Positions 253-63,775 of a stretch of DNA of 64,000 nucleotides are shown here, piece after piece. The stretch is taken from assembly GCF_004027225.2 (NCBI RefSeq), contig NC_044277.2:84332283-84396282 (forward strand), written 5' to 3'. This stretch comes from Strigops habroptila (Eukaryota; Chordata; Aves; Psittaciformes; Psittacidae). Both the position numbers and the translations under genes were made by a program. Positions within the stretch are counted from its first letter, which is position 1; each line of letters begins with the position of its first letter. The notes beneath the pieces are model-generated. The model was given only the letters and a program-made list of their open reading frames with translations, was not told the origin of the DNA and searched no databases.

Positions 253-3200
253 ATGTGCTCTCTCAGTGCAGCCAATGCCAAGTTCTGTCTGTACTTTTTC
301 AGAGAGCTGAGCAAAGGGAAAAGAAATGAAAACATCTTCTTCTCCCCACTAAGTCTCTCAGCTGCCTTTGGGATGGTTGTCCTCGGAGCCAGGGGCAACA
401 CACTAGAACAGATTGAGAAGGTGGGTTTCCTTTGCTCTGAAAAGGGGACAGTAGTTAAGATACAAGCCAAGAGGCCAGTAATACCATCTGATACAGCTCC
501 TACTCACATCAAAGGAGTGATGCACACAGTGGGCCCTTTAAAAATACCCTCTCTTACACTACCCTCTCTTACACTACTCCTAACACCAAACTTTTTCAGA
601 CTAAACACTATGACAGTAATTGACCATGCAATGAATATATCAGTGCTAAAGGAAGTGTTTTTGGAGGTATCCCTCCACTCTCCAGAGCTCAGAAGTGGTG
701 ATTCCCTTTAACGTGGTCTTCTGTCTTCTATGGATACCCAAAGTCTTTTTTCTTAAGAAGAAAGATTTCAAACATTTCATGAGCTCACCCTCTACAAAGC
801 CTTCATGTTTACTTGCAAGGAAAATTGTGACTGACTGTGTCTGACTGCATTTTGGGATAGGCTTGCAACACTGGTTAAGCTTTGAGGTACTGTCACTCAG
901 CTGCATTCACCCAATATTTACATTGCAGGTATTTCATTTCAGTGAAGTTTTGAGCAGTACAAGCCAAGGAAACACATACCCTTCTGAGAAGGTAAGACAC
1001 AGTTGCAGCTCTGAGATGAAGCCATAGGTGCAGGTTTGCCAGCCCTTTTCCTTGCAAACAATCACTTCATCAGAAAGCACAGTAGGGCTGAGCAGCCACT
1101 CTGTCTAGATCTGCAGACCTGCTTATTAATGTTCTTTGTGGGCCTGGTGAGATCACACATTTCAACATAGAAACCTTCTCATTATAGGTTTCTAACCAAA
1201 ACAGCAGTACTAATCTAAAACATAGTAAGTTTCGATATCTGCAAAGGTTTGTCTACAGGGCATGCCAAAGGCACCTTGGAGCTTACTCCTCCAAGGCTCT
1301 AATCCAGTAGACTTCTGCTCAGTGATTTGGAGCTGGACTAGTGTGGGCCTGAAGGGGAATTGTTTTGTCATTCTTTACATCTGGTACAGAGGGACCTGGA
1401 CGTTGTGTCCTGATGCATTTAATTCAATGCCTGTATCAACTGGGTGGAGTCAGGCTTCTCATATAGGGAGAGGCTGTAATTCACCCTCAGGTCCAGTTTT
1501 GCATGGTGAAAGCTCAAGCCTACCATGAAACTCCTGTCTTCATGTTTAAAGTGTGAAGAAGATGGAGGAGTCCATTCCCAGTTCCAGGCTCTGTTGGCTG
1601 AAGTGAGTGAACCCAGACCAGGCTGCTCTCTCACCATTGCCAACAGGCTCTTTGGAGAAATTACTTATCCGTTCTTCCAGGTAAGTGGCCATGGTGTCCA
1701 TTTTAACAGCTCCTGGGAATTACAAACTCAGCAGGATTTCTTCCATCATGAAGTACAAAGGGAAATGAAGCACAAGGTATCCTTGACATGCGCAACTGGT
1801 GTCTAATAGAGCTGATACTTGCTGTGTCGTTTCTATCCAAGAAACAAAGGTCTGTGACCAAAAGAAGATCTTTTTCTTCCCCCAGTGTCTCATCTGTTTC
1901 TAATAAGATGATTTTATTCACTCTTCCACCTTCCCTTCAGAGTCTATGTGAATATGGGACTCTGATTCCTGCTGCTTTTTCAAACAAGGCTTAGAAGTAA
2001 GCCTTTCAGATTTTTGTCAACTAGTCTAATGGAATTCACCATTTCAGAACATTCCTAACAACCCAGGCAATGCAAGTGCATACAGATAATTTTCTCAGGA
2101 AAACAGGCTTCAGGTATTTATAAGTCTATTGCTAGAAACAGTGCTATTTTATCCCTGTTACTACCTTTCTCTTTGCCATTGCATATTTCATCTTGCTTCC
2201 AAAACTTTGCACTCCATGTAAAGAGAAATTTTCAGAGATAGAAAAAGGTGACCAGCAGCTTGAAAAAGTTTTATACTTAATAGAAGTTATATGTTTTACA
2301 GTGCATACATCTACAAAGAATAATATATATATACAAACACACATATATCTCCTTGCGATATTATCAATCCTGATTATTTGTTCAAAATAAGGTAACCTTC
2401 TTCACATAGTAGTTAGGGGAATACGGGCAGCATAAAAATTATATACAAGCTTAAAGAAAGGTACCAGGTTTTGATAGATACCTTTTTTTCTCTGTGTTGA
2501 GACATTTCTACTGCTCAGGACAGCTTGAAAATACAGAAAAATAGATCTGCAAATATTTTTTTTAATAAATAGCATCTCTCTAAAAACTGAATGCTTGAGT
2601 TATTTCAATGAATTTATTATATATGCCTTTTTTACTCATTCCTTTCTCACCAATCTACTACATGGAATTGTCCTGAAGCTATGAAATTATCTATCTTATA
2701 AAAATCATCCTGTTGTGATAAACTTCTGTCATTTGTACTTTCCAGCAATACTTGGATTCCGCAAAGAAATTCTACCGATCAGAACTGGAACCAGTCAATT
2801 TTAAATACACCGAAGAAGAAGTCACAGATAAAATTAACTTTTGGGTGGAAAATGAGACAAAAGGTAAAGAGGAAAATGTGTAGGTTGTTTGGTTTGCAAT
2901 TGAACCAGTAGCAATATTATGTCTTAATTTCAGTTTCCACGTTTTTTTCCAACAGTAGCAAGATTGTTACATATTAAACACTTACTGCAGATTTTTGCTT
3001 AATAGGAAATAAAAGTAGGAAAAATCACAAAAATGGCCAGAGTTTCTGGCTTTAAAAGCTGTACATAAACATTGTGTTATTTGTCTGGCGGCATTATACT
3101 ACTTTTCAGATTTACAGAAATAATTATTAACAGTCAAGTGCAGATGATTACCTGTACAAAGCAATAATTATTCTTTATTTATTATTTTTAAAGGTAAAAT

Positions 3201-4917
3201 CAAAGACCTATTTTCTGCTGGGTTTATCGATCCCTCTACTGTGCTTGTCCTGGTCAGTGCTATATATTTCAAAGGAAAGTGGGCAGTAGAATTTAAGAAA
3301 GAAGACACTAAGGAAACATATTTCCATCTGAACAAGGTACAGTATGGACAGGAACTGAGACAGCTTGGGGATGGAAATCAGATGTCTGTCTCCTGTAACA
3401 ACAGATGGGAGCTTTTCTGCCCTCTGTTATCCCAAGACAAAACACTGGTCTTCAGCTAGAACAATAGAAAGCTACATCTTCCCTCCAGTTTTATAACCAG
3501 ATATGTAACTTTCTATCAATTCACATCAGAAGTGGGTCTCATGCAGCTGAGATACTGGTTGTGTCAAAGTCACTGAGCACATGCACTAACTTGGGGATTT
3601 TGCAACTGAGGATGCTGTTCTGAAAACAGTCTGCTTTTGGGAGTGGATTTGAGGATTCTGTTCCTCTGCTACTATTTACCAACAGAGTAGTGTTTGTTTT
3701 CAAGAAAAATGAGCTAAAGACAAATTATCCCAGGAGAATGCGACATGGTCTAGTGGGAGGTGTCCCTGTCCATGGCACAGGGTTGGAACTAGATCCTTTC
3801 CAACCCTAACCATTCTATGATTCTATGATTCTATGATAATGTATACATTACTCATGAAGAATTCAGATTCATGGTGGCATCAGATGCATCAGTTTCCTCA
3901 TTTGATATGCCATAATAAAGAAGGCTGTAACAAGGGAGTTGTGGGTAAAGTAATCTGGCACCAGTAGAAATGGAAAAGTAGGTTTTATGCTCCTAGAATG
4001 GATAACTTCATTGGAGCTACAGTTACGAGAGAGGAACTTGTCAATGCTACAAGTACATTAAACCTACAACCAGTGTAAATAACGTTTCTGGACTGAACTC
4101 TTATCTCAATACTGAAACCAATTTAAACCTGGGTGATAATTTCTGTATTTTATCTTAGTATGTTTCATGTGTTACAGAATGAGAGAAGGACAGTGCAGAT
4201 GATGTTTCAAGAAGGTTATTTTAACATGGCCATCATAGAGGAACTCAAAATGAAAGTGATAGAGCTCCTATATTTTGATAATGAAATGAGCATGTTCATT
4301 CTTCTTCCTGAAGTTGTCTGTGAGGATTCTACTGGCCTGGAACAGGTAATAATTCCTTTTTTCTTTAGTAGCATACATAAGGGGCTGCAAACAGAGCAAT
4401 ACTTAAACATTGTTCCAGTGTGGTCAGAAGACAAGAACAAAAAAATGAACCTTATTATCTTTTCCTTCTCTTCATTATGGTGTCAATCATTATTATCGAT
4501 ACCACCTTACAGCTTGAACACACCCTGACGTATGAAAAGCTAGCAGAATGGACCAACTCGGATAGGATGCAACAGCTGAAAGTGAAGGTGTACCTGCCTC
4601 AGTTCAAGATGGAGGAAAGTTATATTCTCAACAAAATTCTCCAGGAGATGGGAGCAATTAATGTTTTTGACTGGGGAAAAGCTGATTTGTCAGGAATCTC
4701 TAGGAAAGATGGTTTGGTTGTGTCCAAAGTCATTCAGAAGTCATTTGTGGAAGTCAACGAAGAGGGCACTGAAGCAGCTGATGCCATGGGGCTTGTTGCA
4801 GTGCCTCTGTGTCGCCCAATTTCTTATGAGTTCAAAGCTGACCATCCATTCCTCTTCTTCATCAGACACAACCCAACCAATACTATTCTCTTCTTTGGAA
4901 GGTATTCCTCTCCTTAA
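253..4917 (+). CDS. SERPINB12: SERPINB12-like clade B serpin, complete coding region in 7 exons
   Basis: Spliced coding exons: 253-420, 929-991, 1552-1680, 2746-2863, 3194-3336, 4178-4345 and 4513-4917. All have GT-AG borders and compatible phases and give 397 aa. The acceptor at 235/236 leaves 17 nt of 5' UTR before the ATG; the leader exon was not identified and is probably at or beyond the left edge. The N-terminus, the stretch around IIEEL in exon 7 and the longer loop before GLEQ (four codons more than ovalbumin) resemble mammalian SERPINB12, and the gene lies next to OVALX as in chicken. Family members are mostly intracellular protease inhibitors without a cleaved signal peptide. The C-terminal serpin signature (DHPFLFFIRHN) is intact. 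The hinge reads EEGTEAADAMG, with Asp at about P10, and alignment gives a P1-P1' pair of Leu-Cys (residues 362-363). Inhibitory activity is therefore uncertain. Intron 6 holds a CR1 fragment. Identity to SERPINB12 rather than SERPINB11 is inferred from recalled sequences. Confidence 0.82.
3743..3838 (+). repeat. CR1 LINE 3' end in SERPINB12 intron 6
   Basis: The sequence shows the typical CR1 tail: a GTTGGAACTAGAT-type motif, CCTTTCCAACCCTAACC, then tandem ATTCTATG octamers at the 3' terminus. It is 5'-truncated, as most CR1 copies are, and is only about 95 bp long. Confidence 0.9.
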
Positions 4918-12061: not shown

Positions 12062-15000
12062 ATGGGCTCCATCAGTGCAGCAAATGCAGAATTTGCTTTT
12101 GATGTATTCAAAGAGCTGAAAGTCCACCATGCCAATGACAACATCTTCTACTCCCCCCTGAGCATAATTGCAGCCCTGGCCATGGTTTACCTGGGAGCAA
12201 GAGGTAACACTGAGTATCAGATGGAGAAGGTAAGTTACCTAAATGGATTCAAACCTGCCTAGAAAAAGAATGACATTCCAAACTGCGAAGTTTGGATCTT
12301 GAGCTGAGTTTTCATTTACCATCATTGCTTTTCTCCATGGCAACCAAGAACTGTCTTTAAGAAAGAGTAGTCCATTAAGAAAGAGCAGTCTTGAAGAACG
12401 GTTAAAGCAGAGCCTCTTGCTTCAGCTTGTATAATTTCACAGACCTGATTCCTTCGAGGTGGAAAGGACAACTTGTAATATACAAAAGAGGAAGCATTCA
12501 GAGAACAAAATCACAGTTATAAATACAATACAATAAGATTGTAACTGGTTTATAGACTGAACATGATTAACTGGAAAAGAATGGATCTAAGCTAATCATC
12601 ATAATCTCAAATTTTCAGTGTGGCACATGCAGGAAAAAAAGTTTTAAAGCTTACATGCAATTTCTCAATTCATCTATGCGTTAATCAGACCTGTTTAGAT
12701 CAACACAAACATCAGTGACTTTCGGTAGACTTCACATACTTAATTTCTTCTATTGCTACTTCCAATTGCAGGTTCTTCACTTTGACAAAATTGCAGGACT
12801 TGGAGGAGCTGTTCAGACCAAGGTACAGAAATCTAAGGTACATTTATTTCTCTTTCACACTTTTCTCCTGAGACCGTCCTGATGGTGCTTCAAGTAGGTT
12901 CGACACCTTCTCAAACCTTTGCTAACACTCTTAATTTAAGAGACCTCACTCCTACAGTTTCAGATTCATCACTGAGGTTAAAAATAAAACCAACCAACCA
13001 ACCAAAAAACAGAAAAAGAAAACAGGCTGCACATGTAGCACTAGAACAAGTGACAGAACAGAATAGCATGCTTTGGGTACCAGCCAGCCTTCCTGTGTAG
13101 ATGAGCATATGCACACCTGTAAGGGGACAGCATTTGAAAGGGGCTCAGTAACTGTAATCAGGTTGTAGCAGTAAGACTTGCAGCTGAGACTCTAAAGTGG
13201 GGCAGGAATATGCTTTCTCAGAAAAAAGCCCAGAAACCTCAAAGGCTGGAGAGTAACCACATTCTTCAAAAGCTGCAGGGACTTTTCTCGCCTCCAATTC
13301 TCACTGCTACCCCAAGAGCACCATGAGGGGTCCCAGTACCTTGATACCACCTGTGTGCTTTTCTCAGTGTAAATCTGCTGTCTCTGTAAAGATAACACCA
13401 GCCATGCCCCCTGGACTGTCCCGATACACTTGGGATCCACAAGCACAAAGTGGGACTTGCAAAGAGCTATAACACTTTTTTTTTTTTTTCATAATTAAGA
13501 AAGATTAAGGTAACATCAGCTAAAGCATTTAGTGGCTGCTTAAGCATTTAGAAAGGAGCAGTTCAACACAATTCTCCTTCTCATCAAATGAAGTTCCAGC
13601 CACATTTATCATTGTGCATTTTTCTTGCACACTCAGCCTCTGCCACCTGGAACATTATTCCTGGGACATTAGACAGTTGGTCCACTTTTTCATTATATTA
13701 TGAGACACTTCCTGACTTCCTTGTCATCTAACACTCTTATCCTATCTGCAGCTTCAGCAGAAAGCTGCTGTGAAAATGCAAGCAGAAGCATGGAGCTAGA
13801 GGCTTTATATCTATGACAACTTGCCAATTGCAATCATTGACACCCAAATTTTTGTTTTTCTCACCTCACTTCTACAGTTTCAGATTCATCACTGAGGTTT
13901 TCTGCTTGTTATCACCTAGAATGAGTGTCATCGTATACTATGAATTAATTGTACATCGTTAGTTGCTTATATTGAATATCCCTCCCACGGAGATCTTGGA
14001 CTGTAGTAGATGTTCATTTGCAGATGTCCAAACACTGTGCATTTTCCCATGTTACTTGTACCTTATAAATACTTCTCTTCCTTGTAAAATAAGCTAACAG
14101 CTGTACCTTTTTATCTTCTTATCAACAACTCTCAGTGTGGCAAGTCTGTGAATATCCACATACTGTTTAAAGAACTTCTTTCTGATATCACTGCACCAAA
14201 AGCCAATTATTCACTCCACGTTGCCAACAGACTCTATGCTGAAAAGACATCTTCAATCCTACCGGTAAGTTGTACATCATAGTGATTTTTTGTTAAATTC
14301 TGTGTAAACCTGTAATCCAGGAGGACTGGCCAGAGTAGGTGGTCTGTTAATCCACTGGTGTGGACTTCCATGGCTTTTCCCTTTGCCACAGCCCTGACAA
14401 TAGCAATTCCAGGCAAAAAGATGGCCCTAGTAAAAAACGAATGGAGTAAAAGCCAAAACTATTTGGTAATGTAATTCCTCTCTCCCTGCTTGCTCCTATT
14501 TTAATAGATTGATTGGTTTTTTCCAGGAAATAATTTGATTTCAGCACATTTCTTCAATTGAAAACCTCACCTCAAAACCAACTTTTGAAAGTGTCAAAAT
14601 CTTCTATTTGACATTTTCAAAACAAAGGATACAAATACTCCAGATCAAAAAAACTTCTTATCATCTTCAAAAATAAAGAAGAACGCTTTAAAGTAAAAGG
14701 AGTGGACATAATGATAATAAAACACTCTGAAATGAACCTGAAACAATGGTTTTGGATCAGGTTTTCTTCAAGAAAACATTTAAACATTTCTGATATGTAT
14801 TTTCTTAACTGATAAAGTAATAAAATTGCCAGATCTGAAAATGTCATGGATCAAAATAATTTTTCTGGCCCAGTTTTAGCAGGTTCTTCCAGGAAGTAAG
14901 CAATGAGAACAGCCTAACCATGGTATCACTATGAAAATCCTTTTAGTCATATTTTATATCACCTTCATACTGTTTTAAAAAAAATTACTAGTTTGGTGGC

Positions 15001-18000
15001 TACAATTGTTGTCTTCACAGATTTACTTAAAATGTGTGAAGAAACTGTACAGAGCAGGTCTGGAAATGGTCAACTTCAAAACAGCATCAGATCAAGCCAG
15101 ACAGCTCATTAATTCCTGGGTGGAAAATCAGACAAACGGTAAGGTCAGACAAGATTTTGAAATACACTTTCCTCTCACAACTGTATTTAAACAACTTCTG
15201 GAAAGACTAAGCATTAGAGGAGAGATTTACCCTCCAATCCCATCCCCATTTGTGGATATTTCCTATGGAAAGGGATGACTCTATTGCACCTGTGTGGCAG
15301 TGACAGTGTGTTTTAAACATATCTGGCAAAGGCAGAGATGCCAGGATGTGCACACTTTTTATATGCACACTTTCTGTGTCTGAAGAGCTTAACTCATGCA
15401 AGGTTAGTCCCAGCTTCTCTAGAACGTTGGCATAATTTTACGAGGATGTGCTGGATGGGTAACAAGTGGGCTTCCAGGAATGAAAGTAATGCATGCTCTA
15501 GGCTGATGGTGGGAAATGAATGACTCATGAGCTGTGTACATTTGTTGGGCTGAGGTGGGAGGAAAAACAATGCGAGAAAGAAGCACAGTAAGAAACAGAA
15601 AATCTATATCGCTGCTTCCATCTCTTTTTCCTTCTTTTATATATAAATCTTTTTCTAAGCACTGGAGAGGTGTACCACTCCTGATCCTACCTGTCTTTTT
15701 GCAGAAATATCTGGCCAGGTTCCAGTCATTCTGTATTAAATCATCCTTATGAACCTGAATTCCACATGCAGACCTTTTAAGAAGAGGAAGTCAAGCCAAG
15801 AAGCAGCATGTTGATTGACTTCTAAAATGCAAGACTACTGCTGTGAAACTTACCACTCTCTGCCTTGCTTCTTCCTTAAAGGAATGATTCAAGATTTTCT
15901 TGAGCCACGCTCTGTTGATCTGAATACTCTGTTGGTCCTTGTGAATGCCATTTACTTCAAAGGGATATGGAAGACGGCGTTTAAAGAAGAAGACACTCAG
16001 GAATTTCCCTTCAGCGTGACAAAGGTAGAGGGGCACATCATCTGTCCAGGAAGCCAAGTTGGGGGCTTGCACAGACAGCAGGCTGAGTGTTACACATACA
16101 ACATGATGTGGTCAGTGGCCAGGTGATTTAGCTGCGCTCCTTGCAGTCAGGTTTGCAAGATATGTGTCTGACCCAAGCACACCAGTAGGTAAGAGAGAAA
16201 AATGGAGACACAGCTCTTTTTCAAAGGCAGCATGCTTCAAGATCGAGTCCTGTCCCTTTCAAAGAGCTTGTACTTTTGCCTGCTCAAAGAAAAAATAGCT
16301 CCCTGCTCACATTGTCTCTCATTTCTGTTTCTGCAGCAAGAAAGCAGACCTGTGCAAATGATGCGTCAGAACAGTACCTTCAAAGTGGGAGTGGTGCCTT
16401 CAGAGAAAATTAAGATCCTGGAGCTGCCATATGCCAGTGGAGAGCTGAGCATGTTGGTGCTGTTGCCTGATGACGTCTCTGGTCTGGAGCAGGTATGGCC
16501 CTGACAGGGGAAGCAGAAGAGGTACCAGTTCAGTGGGACCTGGCTGCCACCAGACCTTCTGCTGTCCACTTACATCCCAGCTGCCCACCCCATGGCTGTG
16601 CTGGGCTGGTGGGGGAGCAGAAAAGCTCCCCAGGTGATACCAAGTGCTCAGGCAGCGACTGGCCTCTTAAGAGAGCACTGGACTCAGCCTAATAAAATGC
16701 AGGTAAAGGAGACTAGTGCTGCTGTAGCCCTACTACATGTTTTTTAATGAGAGGTAATTTCACCTCTGCCCCCAAAGAAACTGTTGAGGAAATGTTTCTA
16801 AAACTGATGAGAAACAGACATTCTTTGTCGAAATCCCTGGGGTTTTTTTGGTTTTGCTTTTGTATTTTAGAAAAATCCTCATTAAACATCATAAGTAGGC
16901 TGCTTTCAAAAACTTCTCTGCTTCTGTCATCATGGAACAAAAACCAAAGTTAGATAAAGCATGTCCTAAATAAAATATTCTTGATTATGAAACAGTGAAA
17001 CCAAGCTAAACTAACTGATCAATAATACTTCATCAATTAAGACTTCAGAGAGTTGTGAATAAGGAGATGGAAAGGAAAGGCATAAAATATATTTGGAAAT
17101 TACACATCAAACAAAGAAAATAGATATAAGGACATAAGATATATTATACATTAGATAAAAGGAAGAAGTTCTTTACCATGAGGGTGGTGAAGCACTGGAA
17201 CAGGTTGCCCAAAAAAGTGGCAAATGTTCCATCCCTGGCGGTGTTCAAGGCCAGGCTGGACAGAGACTTGGGTGACATTGTCTAGTGTGAGGCATCCCTG
17301 CCCACGACAGGGGGGTTGGAACCAGATGATCTGAAGGTCCTTTCCAACCCAAACCATTCTATGATTATATGAAAACAGACGAGACTTGCGTCTATCATCA
17401 ACATCAGAAAGAATTCATGATCATACAAGAATAGAAAATGAGAACAGCACAGAAAGTAAAAGAAAACATCAAATTGCTTTAAGTCAGGTTGAGTCAGCCA
17501 TATGCATGAAAACTAGTAAAAAAAAATTTGCTAAGCTGTGCAACTGTTGGGTTGTGTCTCATGAGACATAAAATTAATTGGACAGAAGGGGATGTGTCAG
17601 GTGGGTAAGGAACTGAATAAAAGGACAGTGACACAGGCAGTACTGAAGAAGCAACTAATAAACCACAAGAAGGATATTGATAGGATGCACTTTAGGAGAC
17701 AATCTGGCTTGTTTTCTGTATGATAGCCTTGATTAAAACGAATGGTAAGAAGCTGTTGAATTCACATTCCAGGTGTTTCATTTCCTGCCTCTTTTTACAG
17801 CTTGAGAAAAAAATCAACTTTGAAAAACTTACGGAGTGGACCAGTCCCAGCGTGATGGAAAAAAAGAAAGTGAAAGTGTACCTCCCGCGCATGAAGATTG
17901 AGGAAAAATACAACCTCACAGGTGTCTTAAAGGCCTTGGGTATGACCGACCTGTTCAGCCCTTCGGCCGATCTGTCTGGCATCTCTTCAGCAAAGAACCT

Positions 18001-18202
18001 GAAGATATCTGAGGCCATTCATAAGGCATTCATGGAAGTCAATGAAGACGGCACTGAGATGGCTGGCTCAGCAGGTGTGATTGGAGTCGTCAAATATTTC
18101 CCTGAGTCTGAAGAGTTTAGGGCTGACCACCCTTTCCTTTTCTTCATCAAACACAATCCAACCAACAGCATCCTCTTCTTTGGTAGATATTGTTCTCCCT
18201 AA
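12062..18202 (+). CDS. OVALX: Ovalbumin-related protein X (SERPINB14C), complete coding region
   Basis: Coding exons: 12062-12229, 12772-12822, 14136-14264, 15021-15138, 15882-16024, 16337-16492 and 17801-18202, with exon 2 starting at 12044. They give 388 aa. Exon 4 starts CGKSVNIH and exon 5 starts IYLKCVKKLYRAGLE, both matching my recollection of chicken OVALX. The loop (EDGTEMAGSAGVIG) also matches X rather than Y. OVALX is an egg-white heparin-binding, non-inhibitory ov-serpin in hen. By alignment P1 is Lys353. Cysteines at the start of exon 4 and in YLKC correspond to the ovalbumin disulfide. Sequons include NYS, NST and YNLT. Exon 3 has a second in-frame donor 15 nt downstream (12838), which would add VQKSK. 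Intron 7 holds a CR1. Exon 7 and its flanks are nearly identical to OVALY. No inactivating change is seen. Confidence 0.93.
17155..17372 (+). repeat. CR1 LINE 3' end in OVALX intron 7
   Basis: The sequence matches the final part of CR1: GAGGGTGGTGAAGCACTGGA, then CCATCCCTGGCGGTGTTCAA, then CCTTTCCAACCC, then an ATTCTATGATTATATGA terminus. OVALY intron 7 has no counterpart, so the insertion came after the X/Y split or was lost from Y. Confidence 0.92.
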
Positions 18203-18219
18203 AGAAAGAAAGAGCTGGA

Positions 18220-18225
18220 AATAAA
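18220..18225 (+). terminator. OVALX: Proximal poly(A) signal of OVALX
   Basis: AATAAA occurs 17 nt after the stop codon, in GCTGGAAATAAAGCTTGCC. The identical motif is at the same place in OVALY (32365-32370) but not in OVAL. Use of this site would give an extremely short 3' UTR. It may be unused. Confidence 0.35.
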
Positions 18226-19384
18226 GCTTGCCTTCCCCTCAGAAACAGATCCCCTTTAGTGTAGTATTGTAGTATAATCTCATCTCTCAATATTTTCTCC
18301 AAATGGAAAGCCTAATCTAGGAAATGCCCATTTGGGAAGCTTCCATAGCAAAGACATACCTGCAGGTGAGGAAACAGCAGCAAGTATGTTTACTCCTTTC
18401 CCTTCTCATACTAGTTCCAGGATTGCTTGAGCTGAACAAATACTGAGTCAACAGAGACTAGATTCTCCCACCAGTTGTGAAGGGGCCAAGTGATTTTCAT
18501 TCAAGGAACTAGTTGTTGTGCTCATCCCATTCCTCAGTACATTCTGTTGACAAACCCCTGCTGTTCCTCAAATAAGGGCTTTGAGATCTCCAGTCTGGCA
18601 TAGATGCTTGTGAATAAGATTCTGCTATGCATGTTGTTAACCGGTCCCTGTGTACATCTCAAATGTTTTTTACTTAGCTGTTGGAAAATGGTGTACATGA
18701 CCACTGTCACCAGAGTCGTCCTCTCATCATGACTTCCTCGCCTAAGTCCGAATTTCAGAGGTTCTCCAAAGTCATGGAGAGTCTCCCTTCCACTTCAGAG
18801 AGCACAAAAAAAGATCTTAGGTGCAATTGCGCCTTCTCACAGAGTGTAGATTCAAAGCCTGAAACATGGATATATGGCTGATCCATATGATCCAGAACTC
18901 AGTGAGAACTGTCAGGCAGAAGAGCTGTCTGAATTCTTGTTTAAAACATTGGAAGCATGTCAAATTTGAGCACATTTTGATTTTTGTGAAAAATCCTGCA
19001 AGTGGTATTAAAGAATCTGATTTCTCCATGGGAGTTCTGTGGAAAAACACAGCTTTCAACATTATCCCCGTCTCTGTTGAGCTTGCCTGGCAAGTAAACT
19101 TCAATTGGTCACTGGGAAGCCCTCAGGTGGAGCTCAAATTTCAAGCACATAATTCTTCTATGAATGCAGCTGGGCTTCTTGGTTCCTGTGATAGTTCAAG
19201 GCTACATCTCTTGTTTGTAAGAAATACAGAGAATCCTAATATTCTCTGCCTTTTCCTTCCTATGCATCCATTGCCATCTGCAAATATGGATATATTGGCT
19301 CAATGCTATGTCCTGTTTTCTTTCTAATCATACATTACTGATTTTGATGGATACAATTGATTTTTTTTTTTTTTTGGTTAACAA

Positions 19385-27633: not shown

Positions 27634-30600
27634 ATGGGCTCCATTAGTGAAGCAAATGCAGAATTTGCTTTTGATGTATTCAAAGAGCTGAAAGTCCATC
27701 ATGTCAATGACAACATCTTCTACTCCCCCCTGAGCATCATTTCAGCCCTGGCCATGGTCTATCTGGGAGCAAGAGGTAACACTCAGTCTCAGATGGAGAA
27801 GGTAAGCTACTTAACGTGGGTGTAAAGTGACCTCTGCTTGTGCTTGTTGTTCCTTCTAAGTAACATCACTGAAATATATTAACCACTGATGAGCTTCTCA
27901 CCTGTTTTAATACACAAGAGTAAGCCATAGTCACAAAATGGAGAACTGGATTGAGAGTTATTTAGAGAAAATACTAAGGAAAGTTGCATATTGTCACTAT
28001 GAGGGGCAGTTAGTTTTGACTTAGGAAAAGAAATCTCAAGAACAATAACAAAATGGATTAGCAGTCAGCAAATATTATTATATGTCTTTTTTTCTAAATT
28101 CTGACATCTTCCAGATAATGTGATCAGGGGTTTATTTAATATAGATAAAAGACAAACCCCAGCAAGAGAGGAAGACAATTAGCAGTACATATGTAACTCA
28201 TTTAATAACAGTACATACGTAACTCACTTAATTTAAGAATAATCCAAAGAAAAATTGTCATCTAAGAAAAGAGTAGTATTTACAGTTCCCAAGATGGCCA
28301 CAGAGGGTACAAACTAATTGCAAGCTCACTTGTGAATTTTTAGTTCATCTACGTTCTCAGTTAGCACCTTTTTTCTTTTTTCCTGAGCCAACAACTCAAT
28401 GTCAAGCATTATGTGTAAATCTCAAATTCACATAATTCTTGGTCATGCTTGTTATTTCTACCACTGTCATTTTCTCTTGCAGGTTCTTCACTTTGATAAT
28501 GTTACAGGAGTTGGAGATGCTATTGACTCCGAGGTAGAGAAATAACCTGATATCCCTTTCTGTCTTATTTTCTCCTCAGAACAAAACTAGAACTGTTCTG
28601 CCTTTCCTTCTGGCAGTTTCAGACCCTGCCAAAAACTATGGTAATACTCTCAAACCAAGGAGAGCTGTGGAGGGAGGGAGGAAAGGAAGGTGTAACTCAC
28701 CTATTTGTTAAAAACCAGGGAAGAAGCCAGGTTGCACATCTTGCACCAGAACAAGTGACAGTGTAGGGCAGGATACTTTGGGCACCAGGGTGCCTTCCTA
28801 GGCAAGTGCTGCTGAGGTACAGCATTTGAAAGGGACTCAGCACCTGGAGCCAGCGTACAGAAGTCAGACTTGCAGCTGAAAGACTCCAAAGCAGGGCAGG
28901 AAGATGCAGGACAGAGAAAAGGCCATAAGAGTCAGTGACAGGAACACAATTGCACTCTTATAAAATGCACATTTCAGGGGACTTATCTTGAGAAGGATGA
29001 ACTTGTCAGTTCAATGCACCACCACAGCACCTGCTGTCCCAAAGGTGACAGCCCTATGTCTGCGGGGGAGGTCTCCACTGCAGCATGACTTTTAACTGGT
29101 AGGGACAAGCCTTTAGGGTCTTATTTCATAGCAGGGAACATTGAAACTAGATGATCTTAAGGTCCTTTCCAACCCTAACAATTCTATGATTCTATGATAC
29201 TATAGGAAGAAGCTAATGAAATGTATCTTCTTATTTTCATGTCATCACCTCAGTGTGGCACTTCTGAATACATCCACAGTGCATTCAAGGATCTTCTCTC
29301 AGACATCACCATGCCGAATGCTACATACTCACTGAAGATGGCTGACAAACTCTATATTGAAAAAACATATCCCATTCTTCCGGTGAGTTGTACTGGAACC
29401 TGATTTCCACATGATTTCCCATAAAGGCCCTGTGACTCCACCCTACAGAAGCACCACTGACAACAACCCATGTCTATTGATGAAGAAGTGGTTGTGAGCC
29501 ATGAGGGGAACTTGCTCAGAACGAGTTTGAACCTCCCTGTGGCTGTTCGATGGAGGCCAGGCAAAAGTACAATGGCATAAAACATGTCCATATTGCAACA
29601 GTCACAGGGAGTAATCAAGATTGCTGTTCGTTTCCTAGAAAATGGCTTTTAATAAAAAATGTAACTTTTTAGGGAAATTAAAAATATTTTATGACTTGAA
29701 AGCATGAAGACTAAAATTATCACATTTTCTTTTTTTTTTCCAAAGCCAAATATCAAATCTTCCCAGTGAAAGGAAGCTTTGGCTTTGAAATCTAAGAATG
29801 TAAGAACACAGTATTCAAAATAAAAAGCAGGCACAAAGAGAAGGAAACAAACATTGTTTGTCCTTAAAAACGTTTGTTAAACTGAACATGTTTTAGTAAA
29901 ATGATGAAAATATTTCAAACTTTTAACTTAAAATCCTATCTGGAAAAAAAGTGCTAGATCTAAGTATTTGAAGTCGTCTTTCTTATCTAGCCTTAAGATT
30001 CAGTTACAGGAAGACAGCTGCGACTGACATGTTCAAACACAGAGGTATAAGTTCACTGTTTTAACCATTCTGCTTCATTTCACAGTCTTGCATTTCACAT
30101 TCATACATTTTCAAGTACTCATCTGTCTGACAACTGAATCTTTCTGCTTACAGGAATACTTGAAGTGTGCAAAGAAATTCTACAAAGCAGGGCTGGAAGA
30201 AGTTGACTTCAAAACAGCTGCAGAGGAAGCAAGACAGCTCATTAATTCCTGGGTGGAGAAAGAGACAAATGGTAACTGAAATATGGGTAGCAGATATTTT
30301 CCCCCACCTACCATAATCTATACCCTTGTCTTCCTCTCCTCATAATGTCTAGGAAAAAAAGGTCAAGCAAAAGCAGGTTGTTTATTGCTATGAAAACAAA
30401 GCTCCACAAAGTGTCACCCTCCATCCCCATGCCCTTCATTGCAGACATTTGTGCACACCAGGTGTAACTTACCACTCTCTGCCCTGACTCTTTCTTAAAG
30501 GACAGATCCAAGATTTTCTTGTGGCAGGCTCTGTTGATCCGGATACTGCACTGGTCCTTGTGAATGCCATTTATTTCAAAGGGATATGGAAGACAGCATT

Positions 30601-32347
30601 TAAAGAAGAACACACTCGGGAAGTGCCCTTCAATGTGACAGAGGTAGGAGGGCATGGACACATCTTCTGGCCAGGACAGCTGTTGGCTTACACAGCCAAC
30701 CTGTTACACATACAGCCTGTTGCTGTGACAGGTTGGGTGATTTAGCTAGGTCCCTCACTGCCAGGGCCTGGGCCTAAGGTCAGGGAGTATTTGCGTGAGC
30801 TATCTATGACCAGGCTTCCAGGGCACACCAGCAAGTAAGAGAGGAAAATGGAGACACAGCTCTTTTTTGAAGTCAGCATGCTTCAAGATCGAGTCCTGTC
30901 CCTTTCAAAGAGCTTGTACTTTTGCCTGCTCAAAGGAAAAATCACTCCCCAGTCTCATTGTCTCATGTTTCTGTTTCTGCAGCAAGAAAGCAGACCTGTG
31001 CAAATGATGTGTCAGAACAGTACCTTCAAAGTGGGAGTGGTGCCTTCAGAGAAAATTAAGATCCTGGAGCTGCCATATGCCAGTGGAAAGCTGAGCATGT
31101 TGGTGCTGTTGCCTGATGACGTCTCTGGTATGGAGCAGGTATGGCCCTGACAGGGGAAGCAGAAGAGGTACCAGTTCAGTGGGACTTGGCTGCCACCAGA
31201 CCTTCTGCTGTCCACTTACATCCCAGCTGCCCACCCCATGGCTGTGCTGGGCAGGTGGGGGAGCACAAAAGCCCCACAGGTGATACTAAGTGCTCAGGCA
31301 GAGAATAGCCTCTTAGGAGAGCACTGGACTCAGCCTAATAAAATGCAGGTAAAGGAGACTAGTGCTCTTGTAGCCCTGAATCAGTTGTTATATACACCGG
31401 TCTCCATCAGGTACCAGAAACAGACATGGTAGCAAGGTTTTTTTAAATCTTGAGTGATTTCAATCTTCCAGGAAAGCACTTAAGGGTTTGATAAGCAAAA
31501 ATTTTATCTAAGGGGAACTGAAAAATGGAAGTGATGAGGAAAACAGTCCAGGAGCTGACTAAAAGGAATGTGGGAAAAGCAGTACTAAAAAGGATCTAAG
31601 ATGAGGGAAGTGATCAATAAAATATGTTCCAGGAGGAGCAGTTTTGGAGCCAATTTGATTTGATGTTTTGAAGAACTGTATTTTCACACACACCAAAAAA
31701 AAAAAAGCCTTGATCTGATAAGGAAATTTTCAGATGACAATGTTTCGGAGAACTTCATTAAGACAGATGTTATATAGGCCATAGTCAGGAGGATGCATAC
31801 AGGATAACCAAATACATTTAAGATACGTATCAGTTCTATTGTGTATACAAAGTAAATTAAAAACGTAGTAGCAAGTGGTACAAACACAGCTGTTAAGGTC
31901 CTTGTGCTTTTGTCTCAGGCATTTAATTCCTGCCTCTCTTTGCAGCTTGAGAAAAAAATCAACTTTGATAAATTTACTGAGTGGACCAGTCCCAGCGTGA
32001 TGGAAAAAAAGAAAGTGAAAGTGTACTTCCCGCGCATGAAGATTGAGGAAAAATACAACCTCACAGGTGTCTTAAAGGCCTTGGGTATGACCGACTTGTT
32101 CAGCCCTTCGGCCGATCTGTCTGGCATCTCTTCAGCAGAGAGCCTGAAGATATCTGAGGCCATCCACAAAGCATTCATGGAAGTCAATGAAGAGGGCACT
32201 GAGGCTGCTGGCTCAGCAGATATGATGGGAGACATCCAACAATCTTCTGAGTTTGAAGAGTTTAGGGCTGACCACCCTTTCCTTTTCTTCATCAAATACA
32301 ATCCAACCAACATGATCCTCTTCGTTGGTAAATATTGTTCTCCCTAA
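27634..32347 (+). CDS. OVALY: Ovalbumin-related protein Y (SERPINB14B), complete coding region
   Basis: Coding exons: 27634-27801, 28483-28533, 29254-29382, 30154-30271, 30501-30643, 30983-31138 and 31946-32347, with exon 2 starting at 27617. They give 388 aa, the length I recall for chicken OVALY. Diagnostic matches to chicken Y are CGTSEYIH-type exon 4, the NATYSL sequon with ADKLYI, EEARQLINSWVEKETNG in exon 5, and the EEGTEAAGS loop. It is an egg-white ov-serpin without a cleaved signal peptide; in hen it is a lesser component than ovalbumin. The hinge (GTEAAGSA) is closer to inhibitory serpins than that of ovalbumin. By alignment P1 is Gln353, where I recall Lys in chicken. The disulfide cysteines (start of exon 4, YLKC) are kept. 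Intron 2 has a 27-bp near-perfect tandem duplication around 28183-28236, and intron 3 a CR1 fragment. All frames are intact. Confidence 0.93.
29131..29203 (+). repeat. CR1 LINE 3' end in OVALY intron 3
   Basis: A short (~70 bp) terminal CR1 fragment: GAAACTAGATGATCTTAAGG, CCTTTCCAACCC, then tandem ATTCTATG octamers. It lies about 50 bp before the exon 4 acceptor. Confidence 0.88.
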
Positions 32348-32364
32348 GAAGAAAAAGAGCTGGA

Positions 32365-32370
32365 AATAAA
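32365..32370 (+). terminator. OVALY: Proximal poly(A) signal of OVALY
   Basis: AATAAA occurs 17 nt after the stop codon, in the same context as in OVALX. It may or may not be used. Confidence 0.35.
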
Positions 32371-33033
32371 GCTTGCCTTGCCCTTAGAAACAGATCCCCT
32401 TTACTGTAGTATTGTAGTATAATCTCATCTCTTCAATATTTTCCCCAAGTGGAAAGCTTTCAATATCCAGTGAGATATCCTTGAAGAAGTGTATGACTTT
32501 TCAGATGTTTAGGTGCAAGTATTTCTGCTTAAACCACTTGTATTCAGCACTTATATCCAAGATTGAATGAAAATTTCAGGAGGTAGTTTAGGAATATCTC
32601 CCATTACCACTGAATAACTCGAGAGACAGGCTAGTGTTTTGATTTTTGTGAGAAATCCTACCACTGCTATTGACAATCTGGTTTCTCTATAGGAGAGGTT
32701 AGTGAAAGAAACACAGCTTTCAGAATAATCCAGTTCCTTTCTGGACAGTCACCATTGAATTGATGCCTGGACAACTTGCAGACAAAATTATATACTTTAG
32801 CAAAGCATTCTTCTTCCAGGAATGCATGTGGGCTTCCTTGTGCTGCATGTTAATATAAGGCTGTGTCTCTCTGTGTCTTTTGTTCTGAGAGAGCATCTAG
32901 AAAGTCCACCATTTCTTCATAAATGATCATTTCCAAATACAACATCTTCCTGACTGATATAATTTCCCATCTTCATTGCAGTGACATGCCATTGATTTTG
33001 TGAATGTTAATTGGTGGTCCTTCTATTTATTCT

Positions 33034-40204: not shown

Positions 40205-41215
40205 AGAATCATAGAATATGTCAAGTTGGAAGGGACCCATAAGGATCACCAAGTCCAACTCCCTGATCCTCACAGGACTACCTAAAATTAAACCATATGA
40301 TTAAGAGCATTGTCCAGACATCCCTTAAACTCTGACAGTCTTGGTGCCATGACCCCTTCCCCAGGGACCCTGTTCCAGTGACTCACCACCATCTCAGGGA
40401 AGAACCTTTTCCTAATGTCCCATCTGAACTTTCTGTGACTCAGCTTCATTCCAGAACAATCAGCCACTGGAACAATCTCCCCAGGGAAGTGGTGAATTCC
40501 CCAGCAATGGACACGTTCAAGGTTCAGCTAGGCAGGGTGCTGGAACATCCTGTCTAGACTTTGCTTTTGCCAAGAAAGATTGGACCAGATGATCCCTGAG
40601 GTCCCTTCCAATCTGGTATTCTACGATTCTATGATTTCCTTGTGTCCTGTTGGTGGCCACCAGAGAGAGGAGATCAGCACCTCCCTCTCCACTGGCCCCT
40701 TGTAGAAGTTGTAGACTGTGATGTGGTCACCCCTCGGCCTTCTCTTCTCCAAGATGAACAAACCAAGAGACCTCAGCCACTCCTTGTAAGTCCTGTTCCT
40801 ACGGCCTTTCACTATCTTGGTCACACTCCTCTGAACACATTCCAGTAGTTTGATGTCTTTCGTATCCTGAGATGCCCAAAACTACACACAGTACTTGAGG
40901 TGCGGGTAACCCTAGTGCAGTGTAGAGTGTGACAGTCAGCCCGCTCAAAGAGCTGGCTATGCTTTTGGTTGCCATACACCAACTTTTGTGCCCTACACTA
41001 ACTTGCCACCAACCCAAACCTCCATATCTCTTTCTGCAGGGTTGCTCTCTGGCCCCTTGTCTCCTAATTTGTATGTATTACTAGGATTACTTTATCCCAC
41101 ATGGAGAATCCAGCACTTACTCTTGTTAAATTTCATTTGCCCAGCAATCTATCCAGATCTCTCTGTAAGCCCTCTCTATCCTGAGGGGAGTCCACAACTC
41201 CTCTTAGTTTAGTAT
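40205..41215 (-). repeat. Nested CR1 composite upstream of OVAL
   Basis: Outer CR1 on the minus strand begins at its 3' end (GAATCATAGAATATG, 40205). Near 40445 it is interrupted by a plus-strand CR1 3' end reaching to about 40638 (ATTCTACGATTCTATGAT). It then resumes with TTGTGTCCTGTTGGTGGCCA and runs to about 41215. 40205-40776 is nearly identical to the reverse complement of 51847-52413. Confidence 0.9.
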
Positions 41216-48600: not shown

Positions 48601-50806
48601 TTCCCGTTGTCACAAAATACAAGTTTACTCATTTTCTAACAAGTAAATCTCTGGGTCTTACATCTTCCATTATAATTCTTTACAGAGAGAGGAAACAGCA
48701 GCTATTGCCAACAACAGTGAACAAATCAACCTCAGAAGTACAAGATTACAGCTGCCCTACACCCTCCTCCCTACAAATTCTGTACCCTTCATTTAACATT
48801 GTATTGCCAAGTAAGATACATTATACACAAATGTGTTATATACATGTCTCTTTTCCCATGCCTTCTTAAAGGAATGATCAAAAATATCCTTCAACCGAGC
48901 TCTGTGGATCCCCAGACTGCAATGGTCCTTGTCAATGCCATTTACTTCAAAGGAGTGTGGGAGAAAGCATTTAAGGATGAAGAAACCCAGGCAGTGCCTT
49001 TCAAAATTACTGAGGTAAATGGGCATATATCACCTTAAAGGTGTCTTCTAGAATTTATGAAGAGAGTAGACAAGTTGTTATATAATCTTCCAGAACAAGA
49101 GCAATCAGTAGCTTTAATCAGAAGTGGCCATTTCTACAGTCTAAGAATAATCTTTATGAAAACTATATTATCTTATTTTGTTTTGCAGCAAGAAAACAGA
49201 CCCGTGCAGATGATGTATCAGTTTGGTTCATTTAAAGTGGCAGTGGTGGCTTCTGAGAAAATTAAGATCCTGGAGCTTCCATATACAAGTGGGCAGTTGA
49301 CCATGTTGGTGCTGTTGCCTGATGAAATCTCAGGCCTGGAGCAGGTATGGCCCTGGCAGTTGGGTTTCATAAAACCTTAAACACAGTGAAATTTAGGCCC
49401 TTCACAATAAAGTGATACTAAAACACTTCACCAGCACAGATCTGACCACTAGCAGCATGGGATTGTTGCATAGAAGCATGCAGTTGTCTCAATGGTCATG
49501 AAATAGTTTGTGCTGAGCATGGAGTGCTTAAGGAACTACTTTAGTGGGTTAATTATTGGTCACTGCAGAACAGATTCTTCTCAACTAAGCAGCTGTTACT
49601 CCAGCAGCTTGAACTCCAAAAGGTTTTAATATCTCCATTCCTGCATGTTGTGGAGCTTCCTGGGAGGTTCATGTTAGCTTTACTAGTTGCAATTATCATT
49701 TGGTTTGGCAGTGCTCAACATGCTTCCTTCATACCTTCAAAAATTAACTATCTAAATACTGAATATGAGAAGTACTGGAATGGTTAAAGCAATTTCAGAA
49801 AATAAAATGTATATGACATACTGTTGTTGATATGAACAGCATACAGGCACAGGATATTGTCATTAGCAGGGCTGTAGTTAGTCTGAATATGAAAGTTATG
49901 TAATAAATGAGAGTTCATTGAAATGTTTGTACAGTAATTCAAAGAGTTTAATTTATAAAAATGAAGAGGCTTTTGAGCACAGCTAAGTGTCCTCAGTGAT
50001 AAATGATAGTTCAGGTATGAGTGATTGGTTGCCATTAACACCTGGTTACTTGAAGGCCTTAAATGTAGCTAGAGCTTACAACTCAAAGGCATAGAATGTT
50101 GTTTGGAATATGTTTCACAAGAAAAGAAGATACACAGGGAAGAGCTTTAGATGAAATTTGCAGAGTAGCCATCTCATTAATAAAATTAATTGACAGTGAG
50201 ACTATTAAAAATAGAAAGCAGAAAAGCAGGACAGAAAAGAAAAAGTCATAGTTTGCTTTTCTCTCTTAGATACATTAATCTGTATATACCTAGAAATATG
50301 CCATGCTAAGAGCAGTCAGTTTAAAAAGAAAAACCAACCACTGGTACTGCATTGTCACAAAGGAAGTTATGCTCTCATCCCCTAGATCTCATTTGCTTGT
50401 CTCCTTGCAGCTTGAGAATGCAATCACCTTTGAAAAACTTACAGAGTGGACCAGTGCTGATATAATGGAAGAGAAGAAAATAAAAGTGTTCCTCCCACGC
50501 ATGAAAATTGAGGAAAAATATAACCTCACATCTGTCTTAGTGGCCTTGGGTATAACTGACCTGTTCAGCTCATCAGCCAATCTCTCTGGCATCTCTTCAG
50601 CAGAGAGCCTGAAGATGTCTGAAGCTGTCCATGAGGCATTCGTAGAAGTCTATGAAGCAGGCAGTGAGGTGGTAGGCTCATCAGGAGCTGGGTTGGAGGC
50701 TGCAAGTGACTCTGAAGAGTTTAGGGCTGACCACCCTTTCCTCTTCTTGATCAAGCACAACCCAACGAACAGCATCCTCTTCTTTGGCAGATGCTTTTCC
50801 CCTTAA
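45668..50806 (+). CDS. OVAL: Ovalbumin (SERPINB14), complete coding region
   Basis: Coding exons: 45668-45835, 46491-46541, 47130-47258, 47935-48052, 48872-49014, 49189-49344 and 50411-50806, with exon 2 starting at 45651. They give 386 aa with Met, the same as chicken. Ovalbumin is the main egg-white protein, a non-inhibitory storage serpin secreted by oviduct through an internal, uncleaved signal. Numbering without Met: the disulfide pair Cys73 (ESQC) and Cys120 (YLQC) is kept, the glycan site Asn292 (YNLT) is kept, and the reactive bond is Ala352-Ser353. Differences from chicken: Ser at P14 (339) instead of Arg; Thr68 instead of phospho-Ser68; Ser344 without Glu at +2; and only two free thiols (Cys11, Cys382) because positions 30 and 367 are not Cys. 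Intron 2 holds a 14-bp perfect hairpin. The 3' UTR carries an A24 run. Frames are intact. Confidence 0.97.
46376..46408. repeat. Perfect 14-bp hairpin in OVAL intron 2
   Basis: GTTTACTTCAAGCA (46376-46389) and its exact reverse complement TGCTTGAAGTAAAC (46395-46408) are separated by a 5-nt loop. It lies about 80 bp before the exon 3 acceptor, upstream of the polypyrimidine tract. Confidence 0.95.
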
Positions 50807-51562: not shown

Positions 51563-52413
51563 GTGCGCTCAGGATGGAGTAATCCTGGTTGAACATACAA
51601 ACTGCAGAAGATAGGCTGGAGAGCAGTCCTGCGGAAAGAGATCTGGGGGGTTGGGTTGATGGCAAGTTCAGTATGAGTCAACAGTGTGCCCTGGCAGCAA
51701 AAAGGGCCAACTGTGTCCTGGGGTGCATCAAAAACAACATAACCATTCAGTCAAGGGAGGTAATCATCCCATTCTAGAAAGCACTGGTGCGACCCCGCCT
51801 TGAGGACTGTGTGTAATTTTGGGTGCCTCAATACAGGAAGGAATATCTGAGGTCTCTTGGTTTGTTCATCTTGGAGAAGGCCGAGGGGTGACCACATCAC
51901 AGTCTATAACTTCTACAAGGGGGGCAGTGGAGAGGGAGGTGCTGATCTCCTCTCTCTGGTGGCCACCAATAGGACACAAGGAAATCATAGAATCGTAGAA
52001 TACCAGGTTGGAAGGGACCTCAGGGATCATCTGGTCCAATCTTTCTTGGCAAAAGCAAAGTCTAGACAGGATGTTCCAGCACCCTGCCCAGCTGAACCTT
52101 GAACATGTCCATTGCTGGGGAATTCACCACTTCCCTGGGGAGATTGTTCCAGTGGCTGATTGTTCTGGAATGAAACTGAGTCACAGAAAGTTCAGATGGG
52201 ACATTAGAAAAAGGTTCTTCCCTGAGATGGTGGTGAGTCACTGGAACAGGGTCCCTGGGGAAAGGGGTCATGGCACCAAGACTGTCAGAGTTTAAGGGAT
52301 GTCTGGACAATGCTCTTAATCATATGGTTTAATTTTAGGTAGTCCTGTGAGGATCAGGGAGTTGGACTTGATGATCCTTATGGGTCCCTTCCAACTTGAG
52401 ATATTCATGATTC
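51563..52413 (+). repeat. Nested CR1 composite just downstream of OVAL
   Basis: Outer CR1 on the plus strand runs from about 51563 and is interrupted by a minus-strand CR1 3' end (about 51984-52170, starting TCATAGAATCGTAGAATACC). It then resumes to the terminus near 52413. 51847-52413 is the near-perfect reverse complement of 40205-40776. Compared with that copy, part of the outer element is missing or different beyond 51847. It starts only about 20-25 bp after the predicted OVAL cleavage site. Confidence 0.9.
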
Positions 52414-62156: not shown

Positions 62157-63775
62157 ATGGAAGCTTTGAATAATGCAAACACAAGCTTTGCTCTTGAGTT
62201 TTTCAAACAGGAGTGTCAAGAAGATGGTGACAAGAATATTTTGTTCTCCCCTTTGAGTATTTCATCAGCCCTGGCTACTGTTTATTTGGGAGCCAAAAGT
62301 AACACAGCAGATCAGATGGCAAAGGTGAGTCTGAGCTTCAAAAGGTAGCTGTCTGAAGGGGTTGTCTCTTGGAATAACTTCCTCTATGGAAGAAATTTAT
62401 TGTGATGGAACAGAGGAAAGCCATAAGCAGAAAAATTAATCAAAACTCTACACACATGTATGATAGCTCCCATCTCATCCATGATGTGCACTGCAATGAA
62501 TGGACCAGTTCTCCACTTATGCAGGTCAAAAAAATAGTCTACTCTAGCCTCTGGAAACAGGCCCTCAAAAAATGAAAGAAGTGGCACTGGTGACATTGTT
62601 TCCTTTTAAATCTCACCAGTAGAAATAAGGGATCTGTATCCCAAAGATCAGTAACTCAGATGAGTACTCAGCAGAGAATGGGACGCCTGGATTCTCGTTC
62701 TACTTTGCCACAGACAATTCCCATCTCATGCCTCGCCTGTTTGGAAGTGACCTCACACAAAAAGACTCTCTTCTATAGGTATTCTAAGTTTTGCACTTTG
62801 CTAAACATAAATCCACTTCCACCAGATCAGAAAAGAAACATGGTGAGACTAAAAGCCTTACTTTGGGGTATGTATTTTACAGCCAAAATCTGTAATCTGC
62901 TGAAATTCCGAAGTCATATTTGTGCAAAGTTCATAGCTTCAACAGGTGGCTGTGGGAACAATCTCAGTGCAGTTATCTAGCTCCTATCTTAGGAGGTGAG
63001 GCTTGTGAGTTTGTATCTGCTAAAGCAGAAGTTGTCCAACCTGCTAAGGCAGATCTAACTTCTGATTTACAGGACAGAAGAGGGCTGATAGGGTAACAGA
63101 GAAAGGAGTGATCTTCTGTTAAGAAGAAGGGAAAACAAACAAAAAAGAGGGCATAGCTCTTCCAAACAAATGTTCCAAGGCTGGATGCACCCCTTTGTAG
63201 CCTGGGTAAAGTGTACCTGCTCAGAACAAGGGATTTAAGGCATGAAACTGTCTGCACTATTTTTCACGCCTTCTGACACATAGCAGCACTACATTTAGAC
63301 TTGTGCTTTGGTAGCCTCCACTAGGAGATAATTGGCTCTTCCCAGGTATTTGTTGGTCAGCCCAGGGCATTCCTACCTAGAGGAATCTACCTGCAGCTCA
63401 GAGGAGGTAGATTCCTCTAGATAGGTCAGGTACATGAAAGTTTTGCCCTGCAGCCTTAAGTGCGTGCTTAGTGTGCACAAGTCATTTTGTACACATGGAC
63501 CTTGAGACCCAACCAAAGATTTCATATTCAGTCAGGACTGGACACAAGAATGAAATCTGAGTTCGACTTTCTTCATCATCAGTCCCATGACATCACTGAA
63601 AGATTTTACTGCAATGGCAAATTTTCTATCATTGCATTTATTATTGCTTTTTCCACTATAGGTACTTCACTTCAACAAAGTTGAAGGAGCCAGGAATGTC
63701 ACCTCAACCATAAAAATGCAAGTCTTTTCCAGAACAGAAGAGCGTCTAGCAAACCAATGTACTTGTTTCCAGAAG
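62157..63775 (+). CDS. SERPINB2: SERPINB2-like clade B serpin, first two coding exons (gene continues past the window)
   Basis: Coding exon 62157-62324 (56 codons, MEALNNANTSFALEFFKQ at the start) is preceded by an acceptor at 62146 and followed by GTGAGT. The next exon 63662-63775 (38 codons, starting VLHFNKVEGARNVT) ends at a GTATCT donor. The second exon is more than twice the 17 codons of the ovalbumin genes, so the C-D interhelical loop is long, as in human SERPINB2 (PAI-2). The stretch NKVEGARNVT resembles human NEVGANAVT. The loop contains Cys-Thr-Cys. The alternatives are SERPINB10 or MENT, but the basic nuclear-targeting loop of MENT is absent. PAI-2 type proteins inhibit urokinase and act mostly inside cells. 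The reactive loop is outside the window, so specificity cannot be judged. The intron between these exons has a 21-bp hairpin. Confidence 0.7.
63372..63425. repeat. 21-bp near-perfect hairpin in SERPINB2-like intron
   Basis: The left arm 63372-63392 (CCTACCTAGAGGAATCTACC plus T) and right arm 63405-63425 pair at 20 of 21 positions around a 12-nt loop. It lies 236 bp before the exon at 63662. Confidence 0.93.

Follow-up and report, generated by a model that had tools for sequence, protein, structure and literature searches.

How do two neighbouring genes, old enough for most of their introns to have become unalignable, come to share one exon and its intron flanks almost base for base? The question is raised by OVALX and OVALY, which are followed by ovalbumin (OVAL) in the window, a stretch of 64,000 nucleotides on contig 1 of Strigops habroptila (84.33–84.40 Mb; 1.15 Gb assembly). 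The parts of these genes described here lie on the forward (+) strand, and in each of the three genes the seven coding exons can be spliced to a continuous reading frame.

The length of OVALX depends on exon 3: the short form of this exon gives 388 codons, and a form 15 bases longer, like that of chicken OVAX, gives 393. The longer form would use an additional GT splice donor that lies 15 bases further on (12823–12837), and the predicted extension, QTKVQKSKCGKS, matches QTKVQKPKCGKS of OVAX (7qr2), a segment that ovalbumin lacks. In the putative longer exon the frame continues through KVQKSK at the exon 3 end, where 7qr2 has KVQKPK; both Y and ovalbumin carry an in-frame TAA at the corresponding site. 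The best PDB match of the window X protein is ovalbumin-related protein X (7qr2; 667 bits, full length), and its unconverted exons are nearest to chicken OVAX (36/43 residues in exon 4, 37/40 in exon 5). OVALY was named by its position between X and ovalbumin, and none of the PDB matches was an OVALY. A scan of genome contigs with Y exon 8 returned a single relative, a bacterial serpin at 32% identity (L001), and a scan of viral contigs none; neither scan returned bird DNA.

Further ovalbumin-like serpin exons lie on both sides of the cluster (253–4914 and 62157–62327), and exon 2 of these flanking serpins shows 54–57% and 42–45% identity to the window ovalbumin and OVAX. The ovalbumin gene itself is bracketed by an inverted pair of about 580 bases (40205–40785 and 51838–52414; 96.4% identity over 583 columns) that, judging from a motif, we take to resemble CR1-type repeats.

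Comparisons were made among six proteins with one window bird: the three window proteins, 7qr2, and two ovalbumins from the PDB (1jti and 6kga). We take 7qr2 and 1jti to be from chicken and 6kga from duck; 1jti is presumably an engineered variant of chicken ovalbumin, in which single exon 8 columns may be off, and serves as outgroup only. The OVAX of structure 7qrn is chicken according to PMC9363672, and chicken carries a cluster of the same three genes as the window (OVALX/OVALY/OVAL, or SERPINB14C/B14B/B14; PMC3682532, PMC9363672). The duplication is therefore older than the divergence of chicken and the window bird, whereas the similarity of exons 7 and 8 described below arose later.

Most of the OVALX–OVALY comparison indeed looks old. 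For exons 2 to 8, dS between X and Y is 0.145, 0.133, 1.49, 0.63, 0.285, 0.000 and 0.083, respectively, the exon 3 value resting on 12.3 synonymous sites. Exons 4 and 5 (OVALX, 14136–14264 and 15021–15138; OVALY, 29254–29382 and 30154–30271) were taken as the unconverted reference; exon 4, which the first-pass annotation had put at about two-thirds identity, measures 66.7%. A tolerant similarity search of the introns, judged against 20 base shuffles, found no X–Y segment above the shuffles in introns 2 and 4. In intron 3 it found one segment of 68.5% identity over 270 columns (13004–13271 and 28710–28964), possibly a conserved element or an old repeat. Introns 5 and 7 contain short segments only, 31–51 bases at 72–87%: those of intron 5 span 35–40 columns, and those of intron 7 past the tract described next comprise 51 columns at 76% plus 31 columns at the intron end. 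DNA downstream of the gene is 65.4% identical over 246 columns and DNA upstream 57.7% over 423.

Against this background of an old duplication stands out a gapless tract that runs from the last part of intron 6 across exon 7 into the first part of intron 7 (OVALX, 16185–16731; OVALY, 30831–31377; offset 14646) and differs at 31 of 547 bases (5.7%). Exon 7 of OVALX (16337–16492, 156 bases) aligns base by base with that of OVALY (30983–31138). The two differ at the three positions reported in the first-pass annotation, all of them nonsynonymous, and show no synonymous difference over 34.9 synonymous sites. The same annotation had estimated about a dozen differences in each intron flank, which holds for the downstream side (12/239; 16493–16731) and is too low for the upstream side (16/152; 16185–16336), both being free of gaps. 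The abrupt right end that it placed at 16728 is sharp, and lies three bases further on: identity includes GTAGCCCT and breaks off at 16731/31377. On the left, identity falls by a step, beyond which the 5' part of intron 6 (16025–16184) can still be aligned with 34 of 148 bases differing and 51 gap columns. Similarity is thus raised locally, in introns and exon alike.

The interior of intron 7 (16732–17780) is 1049 bases long in X and 548 in Y, and its best similarity to Y is the colinear remnant of 51 columns at 76% (17608–17658 and 31550–31599), likely what is left of the ancestral intron, now flanked by two tracts of more recent origin. It also holds a repeat (17151–17372) that recurs at 88–93% identity in at least 39 other places of the genome (40 scored of 4975 first-look candidates) and was not seen in intron 7 of Y.

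When the exon 7 stretch was searched against the assembly (E<=0.001), all three first-look candidates were scored, and these were X itself, Y (95%) and exon 7 of ovalbumin (84%). The ovalbumin match spans exon 7 (49189–49344; our outgroup, 83.3% identical to X and to Y) and 15–20 bases on each side, and the intron flanks are otherwise not common to ovalbumin. The part of the tract that lies in intron 7 is GC-rich (57% in X and 55% in Y, as against 37% and 36% beyond it), a content that 0.4% and 1.0% of 239-base windows here reach for X and Y, respectively. Yet high GC (53% and 56%) is also seen in the 5' part of intron 6, where X and Y are less similar, and GC is 43% in that part of intron 6 which belongs to the tract. 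Because the GC-rich zone includes the former and excludes the latter, it does not match the tract, and we dropped base composition as support for GC-biased conversion.

The region is not the single clean tract of the first-pass annotation; instead, near-identical pieces are interleaved with more diverged ones. An identical run of 62 bases in intron 6 (16228–16289) is followed by a patch in which 10 of 35 bases differ (16290–16324), then by the most similar core (16325–16605; 30971–31251 in OVALY) with 4 differences in 281 bases, and finally by an outer part (16606–16731) with 11 in 126. Permutation shows clustering of the differences within the 547 bases, with 10 of them falling in one window of 35 bases (p 0.0008) and 10 in one of 60 bases (p 0.046); none of 5000 permutations gave a 280-base window with as few as the four differences observed. 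This mosaic fits repeated or patchy conversion of differing ages; it makes more than one conversion event, or patchy repair, likely.

Silent sites and site patterns set exon 7 apart from the reference exons. Synonymous differences number 0 of 35 in exon 7 versus 32 of 58 in exons 4 and 5 together (Fisher p 3e-9). With the window ovalbumin (O) as third sequence, patterns uniting X and Y against O relate to the other two groupings as 32:55 in exons 4 and 5 and as 24:2 in exon 7 (Fisher p 3e-7), and at silent sites alone as 8:13 and 9:0 (p 0.003). GENECONV-like permutation tests of run length on coding columns placed the longest X=Y run among 317 polymorphic columns in exon 7 (p 0.012) and the longest among 71 silent columns in exons 6 and 7 (p 0.047), both values being uncorrected for the three gene pairs. 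These results are significant yet modest, and the homogenisation of several exons raises the background in such tests. Ovalbumin was also considered as a conversion partner and rejected, since over all columns neither X nor Y has an unusually long run of identity with O (p 0.11 and 0.47). Residues that set X, Y and O of the window jointly apart from chicken X, 1jti and 6kga occur at 3 of 180 columns in exons 7 and 8 and at 0 of 202 in exons 2 to 6; three such window-specific residues are too few to support a claim.

Homogenisation is not confined to exon 7. A second tract, comprising the end of intron 7, exon 8 and the 3'UTR (OVALX, 17782–18311; OVALY, 31927–32457), is 91.9% identical over 531 columns. 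Within it lies a divergent island that, by alignment with ovalbumin and the place we assume for its reactive-centre loop, corresponds to the reactive-centre-loop segment (OVALX, 18049–18115; OVALY, 32194–32260; offset 14145). Here X and Y differ at 16 of 67 bases, versus 15 of 335 in the rest of the exon 8 coding sequence (Fisher p 3e-6, with loop bounds set post hoc on data already seen). At the protein level, seven loop columns unite X and chicken X against Y and four unite X and Y against chicken X; outside the loop, the corresponding exon 8 counts are 6 and 22 (Fisher p 0.022; same post hoc bounds). The island may reflect selection that removed transfers of the loop or, alternatively, rapid change in Y after conversion.

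The relationship of X to its chicken counterpart changes along the gene in the same manner. Protein identity of X with chicken X exceeds that with Y in exon 3 (17/22 versus 9/17), and in exons 4 and 5 the identities with chicken X given above compare with 27/43 and 29/40 for Y. The order is reversed in exon 7 (36/52 versus 49/52) and exon 8 (99/133 versus 112/133). Quartet columns, with the window ovalbumin as outgroup, support X+chicken X, X+Y and Y+chicken X as 2:0:0, 1:0:0 and 3:0:0 in exons 3, 4 and 5, and as 0:3:0 and 1:4:0 in exons 7 and 8. In maximum-likelihood trees of exon blocks picked after the per-exon identities were known, exons 3–5 join X with chicken X (bootstrap 100, SH-aLRT 98) and reject the X+Y constraint (AU p 0.008), and exons 7–8 join X with the window Y (bootstrap 98, SH-aLRT 96) and reject X+chicken X (AU p 0.021). 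Taken singly, exon 8 nearly rejects the orthologous tree (AU p 0.063), and exon 7, with its 52 residues, does not reject it (AU p 0.126). Exons 4 and 5 alone, without the low-dS exon 3, give the same X+chicken X grouping (FastTree 0.950). That each block rejects the tree of the other points to an old duplication followed by later similarity of exons 7 and 8, that is, to ectopic gene conversion. The first-pass annotation had proposed a refutation, namely X and Y introns that cluster by gene across related species with the same high identity; the part of it that was run, on exons with chicken OVAX and two PDB ovalbumins, favours conversion.

Exons 2 and 6 are perhaps homogenised as well. Exon 2 (OVALX coding sequence, 12062–12229; OVALY, 27634–27801) is 94.0% identical between X and Y and may be an older tract, the evidence being mixed: protein identity is 48/56 for X–chicken X versus 51/56 for X–Y and the quartet columns are 0:3:0, and a weak FastTree phylogeny places X with chicken X (0.667), not with Y. 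For exon 6 the corresponding identities are 32/47 and 35/47, and an equally weak tree pairs chicken X with Y (0.757) and leaves X apart. Chicken X agrees there with Y against X at four columns, X with chicken X against Y at three, and X with Y against chicken X at six, which hints faintly that exchange may have taken place in the chicken lineage as well. As a separate observation, the fondaparinux contacts of chicken OVAX reported in PMC9363672 (Arg56, Gly57, Asn58 and Glu64) would map, with an inferred offset of 9, to residues 47, 48, 49 and 55 encoded by exon 2. All four are kept in window X and Y, and two differ in the window ovalbumin.

Taking these data together, we regard ectopic (interlocus) gene conversion between OVALX and OVALY as the best explanation, and do so with high confidence. 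That introns as alike as the exon argue for conversion and against selection on the protein, as the first-pass annotation had reasoned, is borne out by the missing synonymous differences, the similar flanks and the flip of the tree. Purifying selection, which would keep exon 7 and its flanks alike without any exchange, could appeal to the coding nature of the exon and to the strong conservation of certain serpin segments, but we consider it very improbable: exon 7 is ordinary between birds (36/52 for X and chicken X, 38/52 for the two ovalbumins), synonymous sites are just as unchanged, and the intron is alike too, yet ovalbumin lacks that intron similarity beyond the 15–20 bases on each side. 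A recent duplication of the whole gene from X to Y with rapid divergence elsewhere seems scarcely tenable either. Exons 2 and 6–8 are close, dS of exon 3 is low (0.133 over 12.3 sites) and the exon 2 tree leaves X and Y unseparated from chicken X, all of which it would accommodate; it conflicts, however, with the position of Y outside X and chicken X in exons 3–5 (100/98; AU p 0.008 for the X–Y tree), with the mostly unalignable introns and the dS values of exons 4 (1.49) and 5 (0.63), which require an old split, and with the three-gene cluster of chicken (PMC3682532).

The presence of both high-identity tracts in the 3' half of the gene might suggest unequal crossing-over, by which a hybrid gene received this half from its neighbour in one piece. 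Such an event would also have carried along the interior of intron 7 and the DNA behind the 3'UTR, of which X and Y share at most 51 columns (76%) in the former and 246 (65%) in the latter, so that both would have to have been replaced later; we judge this course of events improbable. Erroneous placement of the reads of one gene in both, finally, predicts exact copies rather than 31 differences in 547 bases distributed over pieces of unequal divergence, and an assembly artefact therefore deserves practically no weight.

On this explanation, OVALX and OVALY are old tandem paralogues between which, long after their split, homologous (ectopic) recombination repair may have copied short pieces without crossover, a mechanism that we infer from the pattern of similarity. 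Two regions would have been copied in this way: the exon 7 tract, which measures 0.55 kb including the flanking intron sequence, and exon 8 together with the 3'UTR. In the most similar sequence 1 of 113 bases of intron 7, 0 of 62 of intron 6 and 0 of 35 silent sites differ. At avian neutral rates, this would put the age of the core at perhaps one to a few million years; the outer part, with its 11 differences in 126 bases, may date back tens of millions.

As to direction, the exon 7 identity of 36/52 between X and chicken X is below the level of exons 3–5 (90/105; binomial p 0.0018) and fits that of Y and chicken X in exons 4–5 (55/83; p 0.39). Ovalbumin shows no such drop (window versus chicken, 38/52 in exon 7 and 63/83 in exons 4–5). 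For these reasons exon 7 of one X gene, either that of the window bird or that of chicken, was probably replaced by sequence from a gene other than X. Chicken X and Y themselves probably differ very little over exon 7 and the first part of exon 6.

There are precedents for old paralogues that evolve in concert through gene conversion. The mammalian pairs BMP8A/B, DDX19A/B and TUBG1/2 are described in this way (PMC2720389), and they resemble OVALX/OVALY in that paralogues within a species are closer than orthologues, in stretches and with introns alike. They differ in being mammalian genes followed in many species, whereas the present case concerns a serpin pair in one bird and three proteins of solved structure. 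GOT1p1/GOT1p2 of Tigriopus californicus (PMC3728101) likewise form a mosaic of low and high divergence whose divergent islands may reflect selection for a new function; that work covered several copepod populations, whereas the loop island rests on one X–Y pair and chicken X. The term 'gene conversion' does not occur in the text of PMC3682532 on the chicken cluster. Among open-licence PMC papers none pairs 'ovalbumin gene family' with 'gene conversion', and among the matches listed from that source no title concerned OVALX–OVALY conversion. OVALX–OVALY is a further, well-supported example of a known process, to which it adds the mosaic, the second tract and the loop island.

For the ovalbumin family, the consequence is that trees of whole sequences blend two histories, one joining X with chicken X and the other X with Y. 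FastTree phylogenies of the whole protein (X+chicken X, 0.880) and of exons 7–8 (X+Y, 0.981) conflict accordingly, and dating, naming and inference of selection on OVALX and OVALY in other birds should thus proceed exon by exon. A divergent loop in an otherwise homogenised exon also offers a test case for selection guarding the reactive loop in egg-white serpins, a group of proteins with poorly understood roles. It is conceivable, though we hold this only tentatively, that X–Y conversion recurs independently across bird lineages and homogenises the serpin body encoded by exons 7–8, with selection removing transfers through the loop and the middle exons such that each paralogue retains its own loop and middle. 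If true, these genes would share a common chassis while their gene-specific working parts are protected.
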